Virus record (IMG/VR): IMGVR_UViG_3300038436_000066
Location: 1 to 21,026 of that record
From: a virus
Strand: one strand, 5' to 3'
Length of the DNA stretch: 21,026 nt
Shown: one piece after another, positions 3,169-16,316 of the stretch
How positions within the stretch are numbered: position 1 is the stretch's first letter
Layout of the letters: each line of letters starts with the position of its first letter
Translations under genes and position numbers: made by a program
The notes under the pieces: generated by a model
Seen by the model: the letters and a program-made list of their open reading frames with translations, nothing else
Databases searched by the model: none
Told to the model about the DNA's origin: nothing

Positions 3169-3684
3169 CTATGCCAGGCTCGCCGCGTACTCCTGCGCCA
3201 GGTCCGGATGCTCCCGCTGCACCTCGCTGAAGGCGGCGGAAAATCCCAGCTCCGGTTTGGCTTCGAGTTTTTTTCGGGTGAGCGCTTCGAGCTTGGCCCC
3301 GGCATCGCCACCGCCGACATTCTTATTCCGGCCGGCCGCCTCGCCGAATTCGATCAGCTTCGGCAGGCTGTCGATAAAGGCCATGAACCAGTTAAGGCCG
3401 GTCTGCTTTTCGCCGGCGTCGCTAAAGGCGAGCGCCTCCTCGCTGTCAAGCCGCTCACAGAAGGCGGCAAGGCCCGCATCTTTCCATGCCGGTGCGATCT
3501 TGCCGGCCGCGACGCCGTCGGCGATCCACTTCTTGATGGTGGCTTTAGTGGTCGTCCGGCGCTCGTCCTTGGCCTTCTCGGCGAACTCCGCCTCCACCTT
3601 TTTGCGCTCCGCTGCCGCGGCGTCATCGGCCGCTTTTTTGCGGATCGCCTCCACATCCTGCTCGGTAAACGTTTTGTCAGGCAT
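3169..3684 (-). CDS. Nested in-frame scaffold protein (Mu gpZ-like internal start)
   Basis: Inside the protease gene, the ATG at 3684 (codon 214, MPDKTFTEQD...) is preceded by AGGAGGG four bases upstream, as good as any ribosome site in the window. Translation from it would give a 171-residue protein of only the charged, coiled-coil scaffold half. In Mu, and similarly in lambda (C/Nu3), scaffold is made from an internal start in the protease gene. I therefore list it as a separate product; the sequence shows the start signals, and the protein's existence is inference. Confidence 0.65.
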   Translation of the reverse strand: MPDKTFTEQDVEAIRKKAADDAAAAERKKVEAEFAEKAKDERRTTTKATIKKWIADGVAAGKIAPAWKDAGLAAFCERLDSEEALAFSDAGEKQTGLNWFMAFIDSLPKLIEFGEAAGRNKNVGGGDAGAKLEALTRKKLEAKPELGFSAAFSEVQREHPDLAQEYAASLA

Positions 3685-4326: not shown

Positions 4327-4863
4327 TCACCTCGTCAGATAGTCGTTTACAAGCCCGGCGATGGTCCGCCAGTCCTCGGCCTGCACCATGAGCCAGGGCC
4401 GGGCCGGGAGCTTCAGATTCGCCTTGCGGCTGTGGCCCTTCACGTTTACTCGGCTGGGCGTTTTCAGCGCCCGGCCGAATGCCTGCTTGATCACCCGCAC
4501 ATGCGGCCGCACGTTTTGCGTTACCGATGTGCTTGAGCCCAGGTGATGCGCGGCGCCATAGACGACGTTGGTCCCCACCCGGACAGAGCTGGCCGAGGCC
4601 GAAAACGCGATCGAATTCATCAGCCGCTTGGTGTCGACCAGGGTCTGGCCGCTTTTAGCGCCGTAGGCCGCGTCACCCTTGGCTCGCTTGGACGGCTGCC
4701 ATTTGACCGGCCGGCCGCCGGCCCGGAAGTTGCGGCGCACACTCTCGCGGAGCACCATGCCGATGCGGCGCATGAGCGGCTCGCGGTGATCGACCTTGGC
4801 GAGCAAGCTCCGGATGCCGTCGGTCACTTCGTGATCGTCGATTCGTAAGGTGATGCCGCTCAT
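4327..4863 (-). CDS. Phage virion morphogenesis protein (Mu gp31/gpG family)
   Basis: A 178-residue protein with the PF05069 (Phage_tail_S) pattern: an N-terminal helix region with Leu-Leu-Ala-Lys-Val-Asp (20-25), Arg-Arg-Ile-Gly-Met-Val-Leu-Arg-Glu-Ser-Val-Arg-Arg-Asn-Phe (32-46), a Lys-Trp-Gln-Pro-Ser segment (54-58), Leu-Val-Asp-Thr-Lys-Arg-Leu-Met-Asn-Ser-Ile (75-85), then Tyr-Gly-Ala-Ala-His-His-Leu-Gly, and a C-terminal Pro-Ala-Arg-Pro-Trp-Leu segment. In Mu, gp31 (G) acts in head or tail completion between the MuF-type protein and protease genes, as here. ATG at 4863 has only a weak GGGG ribosome site. It is separated from the MuF gene by a 220-base gap, unlike its tightly packed neighbours. 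Confidence 0.85.
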   Translation of the reverse strand: MSGITLRIDDHEVTDGIRSLLAKVDHREPLMRRIGMVLRESVRRNFRAGGRPVKWQPSKRAKGDAAYGAKSGQTLVDTKRLMNSIAFSASASSVRVGTNVVYGAAHHLGSSTSVTQNVRPHVRVIKQAFGRALKTPSRVNVKGHSRKANLKLPARPWLMVQAEDWRTIAGLVNDYLTR

Positions 4864-6343: not shown

Positions 6344-7937
6344 CCCTCCTGGTCGTGGCCCGGCCGTGCATGTGGGCGGCGAAAAGCGACCGCTCGAGCA
6401 CGCTGGTCAGGCTGTCCACGTTCAACGCCGGGAAGAGAGCCAGCAGGTTGCCGATTGCCTCCTCATAGGAGGATGCCGTCTGCACCGCTTCGTCAAAGCG
6501 CGCCTCGTTGGCCGCCAGCGCCGCCACTGCTTCGGCTGCCGCCTGGTCGGCTAAAGATTCAAGCGCCTGCTGCTCCGGGGTGAAATCCCCCCTGCCCCCC
6601 TTTCCCAAAAGGGGGGGAAACCCATCGCTGAAGGTGGCGGTGTTCTTCCCCCCTTTGCCAAAGGGGGGACCGAGGGGGGATTTCCCTTCCGCTGCCTGTG
6701 GCAGAGCCGGGGCGGGGGGCGGCTGGGGCGGCGCCACCACCTCTTCCCCTTTTTGCGGCTCGGGCACGCCATAGGTCTCGTAGAAATACTTCTTCGCCAC
6801 CGGCAGCCCGATCTCCTTGACCAGGCCCTTATCCACCTCGATCCGCTCTTTGAGATCCTCGCCTTCCTCGGTCTGTACCCACACCTGCGGGTAATCGGTT
6901 ACCCCGGCAAAGTTGAGATCGACGATCCAGCGGACCAGGGACTGATTCAGGCACTCGCAGAGCAGATCGGCGTCCGCCTTGGTGACCTCGCCGCGCACCT
7001 CGTCATGGGTCTTGCTCGCGGCAAAGGAGCCTTCGCCCTTGATCTCGGTGGTGAGCGTCTGGCCGAGCACCGCCTTACTGACCGCCCGATCCATGTAATC
7101 GCAGAGGCCCTGATAGGTGGCATTGCCGCTCCGGGCTGCCTCCAGGAACTCGATCTGCATATTGTCCGGGATCTTGACGCCGCTATCGGTCTGGATAGCA
7201 TCGAGCGCATCGAGCAGCGCCTGCTGCTGCGGCCCCGGCGTTCCGGGCGGATATTTGCCCAGCGGCGTCGGCTGGCCGAATTTCTCCAGGAACACCAGCC
7301 AGAACTTCACCCCGTTCTTCTTGAACCACACCGGCCACCACAGCTTTTGCCCGAGGCCGTCGCCGTAAGGATTGTCCGAGCTGCCGTAGGTGAAGACGAT
7401 GAACTTGCGCTCCGGCACCTCCTCGCCGTCGATCATGTTCGACGGCGTGAGCAGCCGAAGCCGCCGTTCCGTATCGAAGACGAAGCGCCGCGGGTGCTTG
7501 GCGCGGATCTTGGCCGGCACATACCGGCCGTTTTGCACCGCCCAGATCACCTCGCCGACATAGAAGCCGTACAGGATGCCTTTCAGCAGTTCCTGGCGGG
7601 CCTGGTCGAAATTGCATTTCTCCAGGGCCTCGCGGACGAAGTCGGCGATTTCTTGGCTGCGGGCCGATTCGTCGGCCGGCTCGACCACCCATTCCTTGCC
7701 GGTCACCGCCAGCGCCCTAGTCTGAAGCACCGAGCCGGCGTGCGGATCGCGGGCCACTTCGTCATAGAGCTTCAACCCCTTGCCGCCCGCCTCGGTGCGC
7801 AGCACCGGGTCCGGGTTTTCGAGCCGCGAGAGCCAGCCGGCAAAGATGTCGATGTCCTTCGCGTTGGTCGCGATCTCGTCGGTGGTCGGCTTCTCCCCCT
7901 TTGTAAAGGGGGGCAGGGGGGATTTGTCGTCAGCCAT
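6333..7937 (-). CDS. Portal protein (Mu gp29, DUF935)
   Basis: A 534-residue DUF935 portal, the twelve-fold ring through which DNA enters the head and to which terminase docks. The family core is clear: Leu-Gln-Thr-Arg (50s-60s), Trp-Val-Val-Glu-Pro-Ala-Asp, Gly-Phe-Tyr-Val-Gly-Glu-Val-Ile-Trp, Phe-Gly-Gln-Pro-Thr-Pro-Leu-Gly-Lys-Tyr, and Gly-Gln-Thr-Leu-Thr-Thr-Glu. Three copies of a palindromic repeat are embedded in frame: one at codons 4-14 (KSPLPPFTKGE) and two near residues 425-465 (KSPLGPPFGKGGKN and FPPLLGKGGRGDF). The start ATG at 7937 has no good ribosome site; the terminase stop is three bases upstream, so coupling or a start beyond the repeat is possible. The last residues overlap the MuF start. 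Confidence 0.9.
   Translation of the reverse strand: MADDKSPLPPFTKGEKPTTDEIATNAKDIDIFAGWLSRLENPDPVLRTEAGGKGLKLYDEVARDPHAGSVLQTRALAVTGKEWVVEPADESARSQEIADFVREALEKCNFDQARQELLKGILYGFYVGEVIWAVQNGRYVPAKIRAKHPRRFVFDTERRLRLLTPSNMIDGEEVPERKFIVFTYGSSDNPYGDGLGQKLWWPVWFKKNGVKFWLVFLEKFGQPTPLGKYPPGTPGPQQQALLDALDAIQTDSGVKIPDNMQIEFLEAARSGNATYQGLCDYMDRAVSKAVLGQTLTTEIKGEGSFAASKTHDEVRGEVTKADADLLCECLNQSLVRWIVDLNFAGVTDYPQVWVQTEEGEDLKERIEVDKGLVKEIGLPVAKKYFYETYGVPEPQKGEEVVAPPQPPPAPALPQAAEGKSPLGPPFGKGGKNTATFSDGFPPLLGKGGRGDFTPEQQALESLADQAAAEAVAALAANEARFDEAVQTASSYEEAIGNLLALFPALNVDSLTSVLERSLFAAHMHGRATTRRDDG
6582..6686. repeat. Two inverted copies of the CCCCCTTT palindromic repeat inside the portal gene
   Basis: First copy: GAAATCCCCCC at 6582, then CCCCCCTTT (6595-6603) pairing with AAAGGGGGG (6608-6616). 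Second copy: CCCCCCTTT (6648-6656) pairing with AAAGGGGGG (6660-6668), then GGGGGGATTTC ending near 6684. The copies face each other in opposite orientation, with about 30 bases between. Both are translated in frame as part of the portal, adding low-complexity Pro/Gly/Lys peptide without stops. The same element recurs at 7892, 12141 and 16967. Confidence 0.85.
7892..7926. repeat. CCCCCTTT palindromic repeat at the 5' end of the portal gene
   Basis: CCCCCTTT (7895-7902) pairs with AAAGGGGG (7905-7912) over a 2-base loop, followed by GCAGGGGGGATTT, the typical tail of this repeat. It occupies portal codons 4-14, so the protein starts MADD and then reads through the repeat. It is the third copy within this one gene. 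Confidence 0.85.
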
Positions 7938-7939
7938 AA

Positions 7940-9355
7940 TCAGCGCGCCATGAAACGTTTGAGTGGCGCGGCGCTCTGGCGCCGGCCGGTGGATTCATAC
8001 TCGATCGGCCCGCTCGGCTGGCTCGCCGCGTGAATCGCCAGCGCCAGCGCCCAAAAGCGGTCGGCGTGGCCGTTTTCGCTGCGCTCGGCGGTGAACCGGA
8101 TGTTGCCGGCAGCGGTGGTCTCCTTGGTGACCGCCCGCAGATCGGCGCGGATTGCCGGCTTGTACGGGATGCGCAGCCGCTTGTCTTCCATTTTGCCGCG
8201 CACCGGGTAGGCGAGGGCTTCCTTAACGTGGGGCGTGAAGGTCACCAGCTCAACCCGCTGCTCGCCGAACTGGCGCTGCGCGTCGTCGCCCCAGCCGATG
8301 CCGAGGCCGGTGTAGTCCATGCAGGTGCGGTCCATGAGTCCCATGACCGGCCAGAGCACCGCTTCCTGGTCCGGCTTCTTCATGTTCTGCAGCTCGACCA
8401 CCAGGCGCGTATAAAGCACGTCGCCGAGCAGCTCGAGCACCCAGAGCACGGTCAGATCCTTCTTGCGGCCGATATCGAGCCCGGCATAAAGCTGGCCGTG
8501 GGGCCTGGTCTCGACGGTGCCGTTCCACTCCCATTTCTCGGCCTGGCCGTATTCGCAACCGGCGATCAGGTCGTATTCGAGGAAGGCCGAGGCGTCGTCG
8601 GCCGCGACGCACATGTACTCCTGGAGGAAGGATTCTTCGTCGGCGCAGCCGCTCTTGATGAAGTCGAAGTAGGCGGTCTCGTCCATCTCCATGACTTCGT
8701 GCTCGTATGGGAGCGACTGCTGGAGCTTGTAGAGGAAGCCCTGGTTGAGAGCGTCTTCAAGGGTCACCCGGTGCAGGCTGATGTGCTTCGGGTTGTTGTG
8801 CTCGCGGATCTCGCGTACCAACAAATTAAAGAAGTTGCCGCTCCCCCGGTGGGTGGAGATCACCTCCATGTTGCCGCCCCAGGTGATGCCCGGGTAGGCG
8901 ATGGCCCAGAGCTTGCGCGGGTCCGGATGGAGCGCGAACTCGTCGAGGATACGGCCGCCGCGCTTGCCGGCCTGGGCATCCGGGTTGCTGCTCATCGAGT
9001 GGATGCGCCGGCCGTTGGCGAAGTGCAGCACGTAGGCGGAGATTTTCCGTTCTTCGTCGATCACCCGCTCGCCCAGGTCCTCGGCGGCGAGGTGCAGCAC
9101 CTTCGCGAACATCTTGCAGTCTTCGATCACCAGCCGGGCCTGGAGATCGTCGCGACTGCTGATCCACTGGTCCCACTTGGCCCCGGCCTCGGCGGTGCGC
9201 TCGTCGGCGGCATAGGCGGTCGACCAGGAAAGGCCGATCTGCCGCGCCTTCTCCATGAGCTTCAGGCGGCTGCGGTCGACAATCCACTTCTCCTGATAGG
9301 GGAGAAAGATCCCTTCCGGGTTGACCGGCTTGATCTTGGCGCCGCCGCTACTCAT
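7940..9355 (-). CDS. Terminase large subunit (Mu gp28)
   Basis: A 471-residue packaging motor. ATPase: a Walker A-like Lys-Ala-Arg-Gln-Ile-Gly-Leu-Ser-Trp (36-44), with the variant Ser in place of the usual GKT seen in this terminase class, and a Walker B Arg-Ile-Leu-Asp-Glu-Phe (135-140). Nuclease: Gly-Leu-Asp-Ile-Gly (292-296) with Asp294, Met-Asp-Tyr-Thr-Gly-Leu-Gly (346-352) with Asp347, and His430-Ala-Asp432 near the end, together an RNase H-fold metal site. The start ATG at 9355 overlaps the small-terminase stop as ATGA; the much longer open frame upstream has alien Gly/Arg composition and is a shadow of gp27. It cuts host-flanked phage DNA and pumps it into the head through the portal. 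Confidence 0.92.
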   Translation of the reverse strand: MSSGGAKIKPVNPEGIFLPYQEKWIVDRSRLKLMEKARQIGLSWSTAYAADERTAEAGAKWDQWISSRDDLQARLVIEDCKMFAKVLHLAAEDLGERVIDEERKISAYVLHFANGRRIHSMSSNPDAQAGKRGGRILDEFALHPDPRKLWAIAYPGITWGGNMEVISTHRGSGNFFNLLVREIREHNNPKHISLHRVTLEDALNQGFLYKLQQSLPYEHEVMEMDETAYFDFIKSGCADEESFLQEYMCVAADDASAFLEYDLIAGCEYGQAEKWEWNGTVETRPHGQLYAGLDIGRKKDLTVLWVLELLGDVLYTRLVVELQNMKKPDQEAVLWPVMGLMDRTCMDYTGLGIGWGDDAQRQFGEQRVELVTFTPHVKEALAYPVRGKMEDKRLRIPYKPAIRADLRAVTKETTAAGNIRFTAERSENGHADRFWALALAIHAASQPSGPIEYESTGRRQSAAPLKRFMAR

Positions 9356-9918
9356 GCCGACATCCTCAGCACGTCGCGCCTGATCCGGGCGATGGTCTCC
9401 GCGCTCACGCCGGCCTCGCGGGCTGTCTCGCCTATAGCCTCGGCCGCCTTCTCCAGGGTCTGCTTGCGGATTTCCGCCTCCCGCTTGACGTTCATGGTGC
9501 TGCTCGCTTCCAGCCGCTGCACCGCCAGGGCCAGCGCCTTCACCTGACTGATCACCCCGGGCAGGCTCTCTTCGTTCAGCTCCGCGTCCTGGAGCTTGAG
9601 GCTCAAATCGAAAGCCAGCGTCCGGAGGATCTCGTTTACCAGGTGGCCGACTTGCCCGGCCGGCGCGGCGCCGAGCTTGCCGATCCACATCTTGGCCACT
9701 TCGCGGCTCTGCCGGAGCTTTTCCCCGGCTTCCCGCATCGAGAGGTCGTAGCGGTTGACCGCCGATTTCGTCACCCGCTCTTCGTGCCCCTCAACCGCGA
9801 GGATCTCGTTGATCCGGGCCGTGGCGTCGAGCTGGGTCACGCGCGGATCGCGGAGCAGCTCTTGGAGCTGTTCCCGGATATCCTCCGGCAGCCGGTCAAT
9901 GGACGATTGGCGGCCCAT
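9352..9918 (-). CDS. Terminase small subunit-like protein (Mu gp27, DUF3486)
   Basis: A 188-residue DUF3486 protein. It opens with the family signature MGRQSSIDRLPEDIREQL, followed by helices with Asp-Ala-Thr-Ala-Arg-Ile-Asn-Glu-Ile-Leu (31-40) and Lys-Ser-Ala-Val-Asn-Arg-Tyr (51-57), which look like a helix-turn-helix for DNA recognition. The rest is helical and likely drives oligomerisation. In Mu, gp27 is thought to be the small terminase that recognises the pac site and loads gp28. Its stop overlaps the large terminase start, and its ATG at 9918 follows the upstream gene stop (9922) by three bases. Confidence 0.85.
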   Translation of the reverse strand: MGRQSSIDRLPEDIREQLQELLRDPRVTQLDATARINEILAVEGHEERVTKSAVNRYDLSMREAGEKLRQSREVAKMWIGKLGAAPAGQVGHLVNEILRTLAFDLSLKLQDAELNEESLPGVISQVKALALAVQRLEASSTMNVKREAEIRKQTLEKAAEAIGETAREAGVSAETIARIRRDVLRMSA

Positions 9919-9921
9919 GGG

Positions 9922-10221
9922 CTAGAGCTCCGGCTCCGGCCGCTTGACGCCGGGGACGACCACGGCGCCGTCGGCAACATCCTTGCCGCGGCGGGTGAGC
10001 TTGATCACCAGGGAGCCCATGACGTCAGTGCTGGTGATCAGCCCCTGCTCGGCGAGCCAGGCGGCTTCGGTCAACAGCCGGTCGCGGCTGACGTTGTGTC
10101 CGAGCATCTTGAGGGCGCCGGCAAGGACGTACTCGTTGACCGAGTAGTCCGGATCCTGCGCCAAGGTGCGCAGAATCACCAGGCGCATATCCGAGGTGAC
10201 GAGGTCGCTAAAGGCGTTCAT
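9922..10221 (-). CDS. Winged-helix protein of the Mu gp26-type region
   Basis: A 99-residue protein with an ArsR/VpaChn25-like winged-helix pattern: helices at 11-22 (DMRLVILRTLAQ) and 26-43, Val-Ser-Arg-Asp-Arg-Leu-Leu-Thr-Glu-Ala-Ala-Trp-Leu-Ala-Glu (44-58) as the recognition helix area, then the wing Gly-Leu-Ile-Thr-Ser...Leu-Val-Ile-Lys-Leu-Thr-Arg-Arg-Gly (60-79). The same type of protein is found just upstream of DUF3486 in many transposable phages. The start ATG at 10221 overlaps the preceding stop as ATGA. It could regulate late genes or assist packaging; neither role is shown by the sequence. Confidence 0.7.
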   Translation of the reverse strand: MNAFSDLVTSDMRLVILRTLAQDPDYSVNEYVLAGALKMLGHNVSRDRLLTEAAWLAEQGLITSTDVMGSLVIKLTRRGKDVADGAVVVPGVKRPEPEL

Positions 10222-12628: not shown

Positions 12629-12655
12629 ACCTTGCACGCTCTAGATAATTTGATG

Positions 12656-12955
12656 TTAAATGTCCTCAATAAAAAGGACGCCTCTCTCTATCTGGCCAGG
12701 CACAGCATGGGCAACAGCTTCAAAAAGTACGAATTCTTCTTCACTGTGCGTCTGTTGTAAACGCAACAGCTCGTCTTCAGCTTTTCCTTTACTTGAATAA
12801 ATCACTGTGGGTCTAAACCTCTCTGGAAGAGCGTGGATCTCGCGCAAATCTGCATCAAAAAAGACACACTCCAAATTTATAATCACCCATTTCTTGTCTT
12901 CGTAAGCCATGCCATTTAACCATTCCTTTGAGCCGAGTCGTAATTCCCCTGCCAT
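12656..12955 (-). CDS. AT-rich hypothetical protein, cassette-borne
   Basis: A 99-residue protein of unknown function, acidic toward the C-terminal half, with a Trp-Val-Ile-Ile-Asn-Leu-Glu-Cys-Val-Phe-Phe core strand. Base composition is visibly poorer in GC than the phage genes. The stop codon TAA lies exactly at the left junction heptamer GTTAAAT (12655-12661). The start is uncertain: the frame is open to 13048, ATG 12955 has AAGG close by, and ATG 12910 has a distant AGGAA. It follows the 62-residue gene by 43 bases and is read in the same direction. A two-gene set of small proteins suggests possible toxin-antitoxin or defence function, but no domain is seen. Confidence 0.6.
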   Translation of the reverse strand: MAGELRLGSKEWLNGMAYEDKKWVIINLECVFFDADLREIHALPERFRPTVIYSSKGKAEDELLRLQQTHSEEEFVLFEAVAHAVPGQIERGVLFIEDI

Positions 12956-12998
12956 TACCTTGGCCGCCGGCTCCCGGCTCAAGGAAGGCGTTCGGCAC

Positions 12999-13187
12999 CT
13001 ACTCAGCCGCACGCTCGTAATCTTCGAGAATGCAATCCAAAAAATCATTTTCGTCGGTAGTTATATGCACTTGCACCTCTATGCCATCTTCCGCATAAAT
13101 GCAGAATGCTTCAGATTCACATCCATTGCGCAGATCTTTTAAAGAGGTGTTTATCGCTTTTTCAAGAGCTTCTTTTTTGATTTTCAT
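12999..13187 (-). CDS. AT-rich hypothetical protein, 62 residues, cassette-borne
   Basis: A 62-residue acidic protein (MKIKKEALEK..., then Gly-Ile-Glu-Val-Gln-Val-His-Ile and Asp-Glu-Asn-Asp-Phe-Leu-Asp-Cys). A good GGAGG lies ten bases before the ATG at 13187. An N-terminal helix, a short beta pair and an acidic helix are suggested. No family is recognised. Like the gene after it, it is AT-rich compared with the phage. It starts just after the attC-like fold, so its promoter, if any, would overlap that site. Confidence 0.65.
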   Translation of the reverse strand: MKIKKEALEKAINTSLKDLRNGCESEAFCIYAEDGIEVQVHITTDENDFLDCILEDYERAAE

Positions 13188-13208
13188 AGGCTTACGACCT
13201 CCATTTGT

Positions 13209-13293
13209 GCCGAACCATGTTTTTCAAGCCGACGCCGTTGGCGTCTGGCTTATTAATGCGCCTCTGGGGCGCGGCTTAAAAACAGCGTTAAAA
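13209..13293 (+). other. attC-like integron recombination site
   Basis: Reading the plus strand: R''-like GCCGAAC (13209-13215), spacer CAT, GTTTTT (13219-13224), bulged C (13225), AAGCCG (13226-13231), bulged A (13232), CGCC (13233-13236), a 31-base terminal arm with its own GGCG/CGCC stem, then GGCG (13268-13271), CGGCTT (13272-13277), AAAAAC (13278-13283), spacer AGC and R'-like GTTAAAA (13287-13293). That is 16 paired bases with two extrahelical bases on the R'' side, an unpaired spacer, and AAC pairing with GTT. From memory, the aadA-type attC carries the same TTCAAGCCGACGCCG and GGCGCGGCTTAA arms with the same two bulges. R'' and R' deviate slightly from RYYYAAC/GTTRRRY. Confidence 0.65.
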
Positions 13294-13614
13294 CAACCGT
13301 CCTTGCCTTTCGTCCGGCCGCCCCAGGATCGCCCACACCCAGCGCTCGGAGAGGCCATAGCGGCGGGCGATCTCGGGGACCTTCACCCCGCGGTCGTACT
13401 CCTGCCGGATGCACTGGTCCCGCCAGCGGATCCGCCAGGCATCGAGGTTGCACACATAAATCGGGGTCGAGCGAAAGCGCTGGACGATCCGGAGCGTGTT
13501 TAGCACCCCGACCTCTTCGGCGAGGGTCCGCAAATCGCCGGGCAAGTCCTCGATCGCGGGCAGCAGCTCGGTCGGGAGCTTGGTCAAATCGAAATCGAGC
13601 GGCGGCTCAGCCAT
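13288..13614 (-). CDS. mor: Mor-family middle transcription activator
   Basis: A 108-residue protein of the Mor/C family. The N-terminal dimerisation half (25-55) has Leu-Ala-Glu-Glu-Val-Gly...Leu-Arg-Ile-Val-Gln-Arg-Phe and the Thr-Pro-Ile-Tyr-Val strand used for DNA contacts in Mu Mor. The C-terminal helix-turn-helix (about 78-98) reads Val-Pro-Glu-Ile-Ala-Arg-Arg-Tyr-Gly-Leu-Ser-Glu-Arg-Trp-Val. In Mu, Mor activates the middle promoter, leading to late expression. No separate C gene is seen here. It overlaps gemA by eight bases. The final codons, Leu-Phe-stop, overlap the junction of the attC-like site, so an insertion at this place left the protein intact or changed its last bases only. 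Confidence 0.88.
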   Translation of the reverse strand: MAEPPLDFDLTKLPTELLPAIEDLPGDLRTLAEEVGVLNTLRIVQRFRSTPIYVCNLDAWRIRWRDQCIRQEYDRGVKVPEIARRYGLSERWVWAILGRPDERQGRLF

Positions 13615-15992: not shown

Positions 15993-16052
15993 AAACCATT
16001 CGGTTATCTGACGTTGGCTGCTCGTTCAGGCCCCGGCCACCACGCCGAGGCG

Positions 16053-16073
16053 ACTCCCGCGAGAGGCGGGAGT
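16053..16073. terminator. Hairpin after the acidic zinc-ribbon gene
   Basis: ACTCCCGC (16053-16060) and GCGGGAGT (16066-16073) make a perfect 8-bp stem with a 5-base loop, six bases after the stop of the gene at 16080. On the minus strand no T run follows, so it is not a textbook intrinsic terminator; it may attenuate or stabilise RNA ends. Confidence 0.35.
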
Positions 16074-16079
16074 TTCGCT

Positions 16080-16316
16080 TCAGTCGCCCGCCACCTCCTC
16101 GTCGCAATCGCCCACCACAATTTCCTCCTCCTGCTCGTCGCTGGGGGAATCATCCTCCGACGTGAAATCGGCGATCTCGACCAGCGCCGACCGCTCGTGG
16201 CCGCAGTGCGCGCAGCAGATAAAAACCTCGATCACCTCGGGGTCAATGTGGTTTTGCTCAGCGGCCAGATCGGCGCGGGTGTGCTGGTAGCTGCATTTCG
16301 GGCAGATGAATTCCAT
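16080..16316 (-). CDS. Small zinc-ribbon protein with acidic tail
   Basis: A 78-residue protein with Cys5-Pro-Lys-Cys8 and Cys35-Ala-His-Cys38 (plus Cys34), a standard two-knuckle zinc ribbon, followed by a strongly acidic C-terminal tail (residues 50-78, many Asp/Glu). The start ATG at 16316 follows a GAGGGGGGG tract three bases away. Its length and layout resemble small phage proteins that mimic DNA or bind the transcription machinery, but no exact family is recognised. Confidence 0.7.
   Translation of the reverse strand: MEFICPKCSYQHTRADLAAEQNHIDPEVIEVFICCAHCGHERSALVEIADFTSEDDSPSDEQEEEIVVGDCDEEVAGD

Follow-up and report, generated by a model that had tools for sequence, protein, structure and literature searches.

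What is an attC site, the recombination site of integron cassettes, doing in a transposable phage? The question arises from a viral stretch of 21,026 nt (IMG/VR record IMGVR_UViG_3300038436_000066; hereafter, the window) in which an earlier note had described an attC-like hairpin at 13209-13293. Genes identified in the window encode a MuA-type transposase (rve and Mu-transpos_C domains), an AAA ATPase, GemA, Mor, a lysozyme, and a portal protein. The transposase, the MuB-like ATPase, GemA, and Mor together place the window among Mu-like transposable phages.

Every named element of the hairpin is found in the sequence. On the plus strand, the 5' arm of this site (site 1) comprises R'' GCCGAAC (13209-13215), a spacer CAT, and GTTTTT-C-AAGCCG-A-CGCC, and the 3' arm comprises GGCG-CGGCTT-AAAAAC, a spacer AGC, and R' G|TTAAAA (13287-13293; vertical bars mark crossover points). 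The paired blocks, the extrahelical bases on the R'' side, and the AAC/GTT ends are present as the note had stated. The L''/L' stem has 6+6 paired bases, the unpaired central spacers are 3/3 nt, and the extrahelical C and A both lie on the R''/L'' arm; the likeness to aadA drawn in the note also holds, with both extra bases positioned as in the aadA attC. The R boxes GCCGAAC/GTTAAAA each have one mismatch against RYYYAAC/GTTRRRY. Site 1 shares with class 1 aadA-type sites the L box AAGCCG/CGGCTT, the placement of its extrahelical C and A, and the AAC/GTT ends, but differs in a longer loop, an AT-rich outer L stem, a 5' spacer that is one base longer, and an ORF on the opposite strand.

The note had counted a single attC; that site is real, but a second one (site 2) was overlooked. 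Site 2 reads ATTTAAC-CA-TTCCTT-T-GAGCCG-A ... CGGCTC-AAGGAA-GGC-GTTCGGC on the plus strand, with 6+6 paired bases in its L''/L' stem, extrahelical T and A on one arm, spacers of 2/3 nt, and R boxes (ATTTAAC/GTTCGGC) that deviate from RYYYAAC/GTTRRRY by one mismatch, in R'. Folding, a check that the note had proposed, does not give the attC fold of site 1 as the lowest-energy structure in place: it lies 2.2 kcal/mol above the ViennaRNA optimum, a branched fold in which L'' pairs inside the loop. Site 1 folds at -20.6 kcal/mol in place and at -27.6 kcal/mol when given the R' box of its own cassette; the box in place is a hybrid and, for that reason, pairs only at AAC/GTT.

Could the two hairpins be ordinary intergenic palindromes of the phage (terminators, say, or REP-like elements) whose likeness to attC is accidental? 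Both are intergenic and each has an alternative fold of lower energy in place, but both also carry asymmetric extra bases at attC positions. In the window, a strict structural descriptor detects only two strong sites, scoring 13.0 (13209-13293) and 13.5 (12914-12996); scores in the backgrounds, which comprised 1.26 Mb of shuffled window, 0.38 Mb of shuffled insert, and 0.99 Mb of related phage loci, all stay below 12. A log-odds profile derived from 32 further attCs, on the columns of a covariance model and with the loop left free, gives 18.1 bits for site 1 and 29.5 bits for site 2 in place, against a top non-attC background of 8.7 bits in 3.33 Mb of Mu-like phage DNA. With the own R' box, as in a free circle, these rise to 32.8 and 41.6 bits, respectively. 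The home-made covariance model (32 attCs from plasmid integrons and viral contigs, picked by geometry regardless of ORFs), which recovers 135 hits in the loci that supplied its training set, penalizes long loops and is less generous: 16.2 bits for site 1 (partial match, E 0.04, the top match in the window) and a weak 7.8 bits for site 2. These scores are low because of the penalty on long loops and the hybrid R boxes. Nothing comparable is scored in shuffles or in the 3.33 Mb of relatives, other attC candidates aside, and REP-like dispersal, which the note would have taken as a refutation if found across the host genome, is not seen within the window. Both attC sites are far over background, which speaks against chance. 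Judged by its sequence, site 1 is a bona fide attC that is predicted to recombine.

The R boxes also match across each cassette. Compared as reverse complements, GTTAAAT (12655) and R'' ATTTAAC (12914-12920) agree in 7/7 bases, and R' GTTCGGCA (12990) and TGCCGAAC (13208) agree in 8/8. Such matches are expected in integron cassettes because R'' and the R' at the opposite end derive from one circle, and the complementarity therefore sets the crossovers at 12655|12656, 12990|12991, and 13287|13288 (table 1). The 632-bp insert (12656-13287) has G|TT at both outer ends and 46% GC inside its ends versus 64.6% outside. The matching boxes largely refute chance resemblance of ordinary palindromes, the G|TT ends and the sharp GC island argue against it too, and we regard that explanation as very improbable.

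Table 1. Features of the two-cassette insert and its flanks (window coordinates).
Feature	Position	Strand	Basis or remark
Phage gene downstream of insert, 104 aa	12323..12637	-	ORF list; flanks the insertion site together with mor
Left junction, R box GTTAAAT	12655..12661	+	Crossover G12655|T12656
Gene cassette 1, 335 bp	12656..12990	+ (attC top strand)	G|TT at both ends; attC at 3' end; matching R boxes
Cassette 1 ORF, 84 aa	12656..12910	-	Antisense to attC; TAA stop inside R box
attC of cassette 1 (site 2)	12914..12996	+	Descriptor 13.5; profile 29.5 bits, 41.6 with own R' box
Gene cassette 2, 297 bp	12991..13287	+	R box complementarity
Cassette 2 ORF, 62 aa	12999..13187	-	Antisense to attC; GGAGG ribosome-binding site at ~13198-13202
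attC of cassette 2 (site 1)	13209..13293	+	Descriptor, profile, fold, box layout
Right junction	13287..13293	+	Crossover G13287|T13288; target GTTAAAA is the complement of the mor stop TAA plus C
mor-type late activator	13288..13614	-	Pfam Mor 1.8e-8; PHROG 836, late transcriptional activator, 9e-18

The ORF of a cassette usually runs in the direction of its attC; both ORFs of the window insert are antisense, which defines a variant. For cassette 1, the composition score is 29.8 (for a 108-aa frame containing the ORF) versus -2.8 on the other strand, and the ORF of cassette 2 scores 27.5, with no ORF on the other strand. Neither protein has relatives among plasmids, phages, 84,980 species genomes, Pfam, NCBIfam, or PADLOC, and in PHROGs the only match to either was partial and not significant, to the 62-aa protein. 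Predicted structures of the 84-aa and 62-aa proteins are of low confidence (pLDDT 57 and 54, respectively). Both are probably products of accessory phage genes. By inspection, no intI gene is recognized among the ORFs of the window, and on its left the array is flanked by the 104-aa phage gene (leader and coding region), with no intI or attI. With two attC sites and no recognized integrase gene, the array therefore qualifies as a phage CALIN.

The insert leaves the neighboring phage genes intact. The stop codon of mor adjoins the right end, and the left end lies 18 nt ahead of the start of the 104-aa gene, which has no family match. Rejoining the flanks in silico yields mor-TAA|C followed by a leader of 18-27 nt (to GTG or a later ATG), a normal phage junction. 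An empty site at the same mor locus was not found, there being no close mor relatives in viral contigs or species genomes; the nearest relatives are 41-50% identical in protein. In one related phage (L008, 1229-4000), a long, AT-rich, gene-poor, and attC-free insert sits behind mor, and this place may be a general cargo site.

Related transposable phages also have attC sites. We compiled ~240 Mu-like phage loci, nearly all fetched by terminase and several being overlapping cuts of one contig, in which the covariance model matches L062 (41.1 bits), L205 (26.6 bits), L054 (25.9 bits), and L138 (18.4 bits). The site in L205 is attC-like, but cassette ends could not be set and it was rejected as a delimited cassette. 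In locus L138, one cassette (3225-3518) lies between two genes, in the same layout as the window insert. Homologues of these two genes are separated by ~27 nt in both L052 and L055 and are direct neighbors in L044, representing the empty site; the flanking HTH gene is 89% identical in L052. The L062 cassette carries a gene of the phage family DUF7220 whose TAA stop is inside an R box. In L054, the TAA stop of a head gene is inside an R box and is followed by an attC and then a 99-aa ORF. The insertions in L138 and L062 are not at the stop codon of the preceding gene, and a stop-codon target is seen in only two of four cases.

These loci bear on how the cassettes entered. Real cassettes could have arrived without an integrase, through recombination with a bacterial integron, whether homologous or illegitimate; such entry has been proposed for phage CALINs (PMC9892861), and G|TT ends alone are short. 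However, both ends of the window insert fall exactly at crossover points and bring no integron flank, L138 has one whole cassette at a clean empty site, and donor integrons have the opposite polarity. We consider entry by such recombination unlikely. Instead, 12656-13287 is best explained as a two-cassette CALIN in a Mu-like phage that was probably inserted in trans by a host integrase.

Polarity of attC relative to ORFs sets these cassettes apart. With the attC top strand set by the extrahelical bases, the ORF is antisense to it in both window cassettes and in L138, L062, and L054. In a broader comparison, IMG/VR arrays were collected with an orientation-neutral DNA pattern, and the ORF strand was called by a test on amino-acid composition that had Mu-like genes as its training set. 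A test on codon usage was dropped after mixed calls in GC-rich contigs, and a looser first composition test had called two L108 cassettes antisense and three phage cassettes sense where a sense ORF was absent. Across 12 viral records without a match over the cut-off of the integron-integrase model, 39 cassettes are antisense and none is sense. Conversely, all 15 cassettes in six integrase-type arrays are sense; these are L108, the only IMG/VR record of the collected set with an integron integrase (489.5 bits), and five class 1 plasmid loci (intI1 annotated in three). By record, the split is 12 versus 6 with no exception; by cassette, Fisher p is 1e-13, though cassettes within one array are not independent. 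Phage-type genes are present in 8 of the 12 antisense records (PHROGs), among them genes for DNA polymerase, helicase, tail, minor head, RecE/Bet, and CI repressor, and for one antisense cassette protein, in L105, relatives occur in 244 phage records. L099 was rejected as a bacterial record; its array is antisense and it is without intI. Among phages with annotation, H101 and MW202573 have attCs that run against the annotated genes (matches to the home-made covariance model are weak in H101, at most 18.0 bits), P12002L has a weak match only, within a gene, and TJE1 is sense. The antisense rule therefore has exceptions, and for phage cassettes it is strong but not universal.

If the plus-strand call were wrong, the window attCs would be truly sense-polar and the array an ordinary one, with mor as its first cassette gene and a last cassette devoid of attC. 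The layout of gene, TAAC, attC, gene, TAAC does resemble that of an ordinary array, and the matching R boxes fit either polarity. But the extrahelical bases are on the plus-strand 5' arm in both sites, the profile matches the plus strand only, and the covariance model, with its top strand defined as in class 1 integrons, gives the same polarity in the 12 viral records. Moreover, whole cassettes fit the ends of the array only under the antisense reading. A sense-polar array is thus quite unlikely, and we retain the antisense polarity. The earlier note had suggested cassette flow between integrons and phages. An attC does reside in a transposable phage, but the cassettes have the reverse polarity of ordinary integron cassettes, which argues for a mostly separate phage pool over simple exchange.

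We propose that an integron integrase of the host cell, acting in trans, would fold the attC bottom strand (here the phage coding strand), cleave it, and join it to a G|TT site that is no attC and lies outside any integron, inserting the circular cassettes there. Off-target GTT sites are used by IntI (PMC10127599), and attG sites are cited in PMC12444791 and PMC12901181. In the window, the landing site would be the opposite strand of the TAA|C stop. A TAA followed by C reads GTTA on the other strand, so an insertion behind the stop leaves the upstream gene whole. Since the phage has no integron promoter, only cassette ORFs that read with the phage operon would be useful, and to do so in the observed landing orientation the attC must be inverted relative to the ORF. 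Cassettes with an inverted attC would be kept, their genes being read with the operon. An antisense ORF can end in a TAA inside the next R box, which would provide a new safe landing site and allow the array to grow. We speculate that the replication strand also matters, the attC bottom strand being the phage coding strand.

In integrons, the preference for the attC bottom strand places genes for reading from the integron promoter (PMC11641012), so cassettes with inverted attC would be silent there. Phages may have a cassette pool of their own, with inverted attC, that is expressed when host integrases insert cassettes behind phage stops (TAA|C) and that allows accessory genes to be swapped among phages; we offer this tentatively, at slightly below an even chance. 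If the large antisense class is true, phages would do more than carry integron cassettes and would have a cassette system fitted to their own operons and driven by an enzyme that they do not encode. Insertion behind TAA|C would be a simple rule for gaining small phage genes without damage.

The presence of attC in a phage, which the note had called unexpected, is already known. Qi et al. (2023) reported integrons and CALINs in phages, with CALINs in TJE1, H101/PH101, P12002L, and MW202573, and found that attCs of phage CALINs recombine with attI1 via IntI1, with the bottom strand preferred and five of six tested sites active (PMC9892861). The window array is likewise an integrase-free attC array in a phage, but it is in a Mu-like phage and none of the named examples is reported to be Mu-like. 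Its inverted polarity is common to H101 and MW202573 but not TJE1. Polarity of attC relative to ORFs is not discussed in PMC9892861, and the open-access literature yielded no report of inverted attC polarity in phage cassettes; it seems to be undescribed. Similar insertion is known at attG or secondary sites (according to papers citing Loot et al. 2024, and Recchia and Hall 1995 as cited in PMC10127599), where whole cassettes likewise enter at a GTT other than attI or attC. The window target differs in being in a phage and at the complement of a stop codon, and the cassettes in having an inverted attC.

Other features were observed in these phages. In L138, direct repeats GGCGCACAACG, which match the R' box of the neighboring attC, flank a 560-bp stretch (9650-10220) that contains a small HTH gene and a 100-aa ORF; this stretch is perhaps a cassette that lost its attC. 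A second cassette of L138 (10214-10540) has an ORF that ends in TAA within GCATAAC and is interrupted near its start by a TGA codon. Short repeats in the window (6508-6774 and 7800-7940) read PPFxKGG in protein and DNA (SPLPPFTKGE, KSPLGPPFGKGG), resemble dispersed repeats, and are located at both ends of the portal gene. Locus L018 of a related transposable phage has a C4 antisense RNA match (4596-4670; 45.1 bits, barely over the gathering score). The early region of the window contains a type II hammerhead ribozyme (16012-16080, minus strand; Rfam RF02276, 61.5 bits). RF02276 also matches in related Mu-like phages (L002, 71.4 bits; L012/L141, 60.5 bits; L049, 39.9 bits; L145, 37.5 bits), and a self-cleaving RNA is possibly conserved in the early operon of this phage group.
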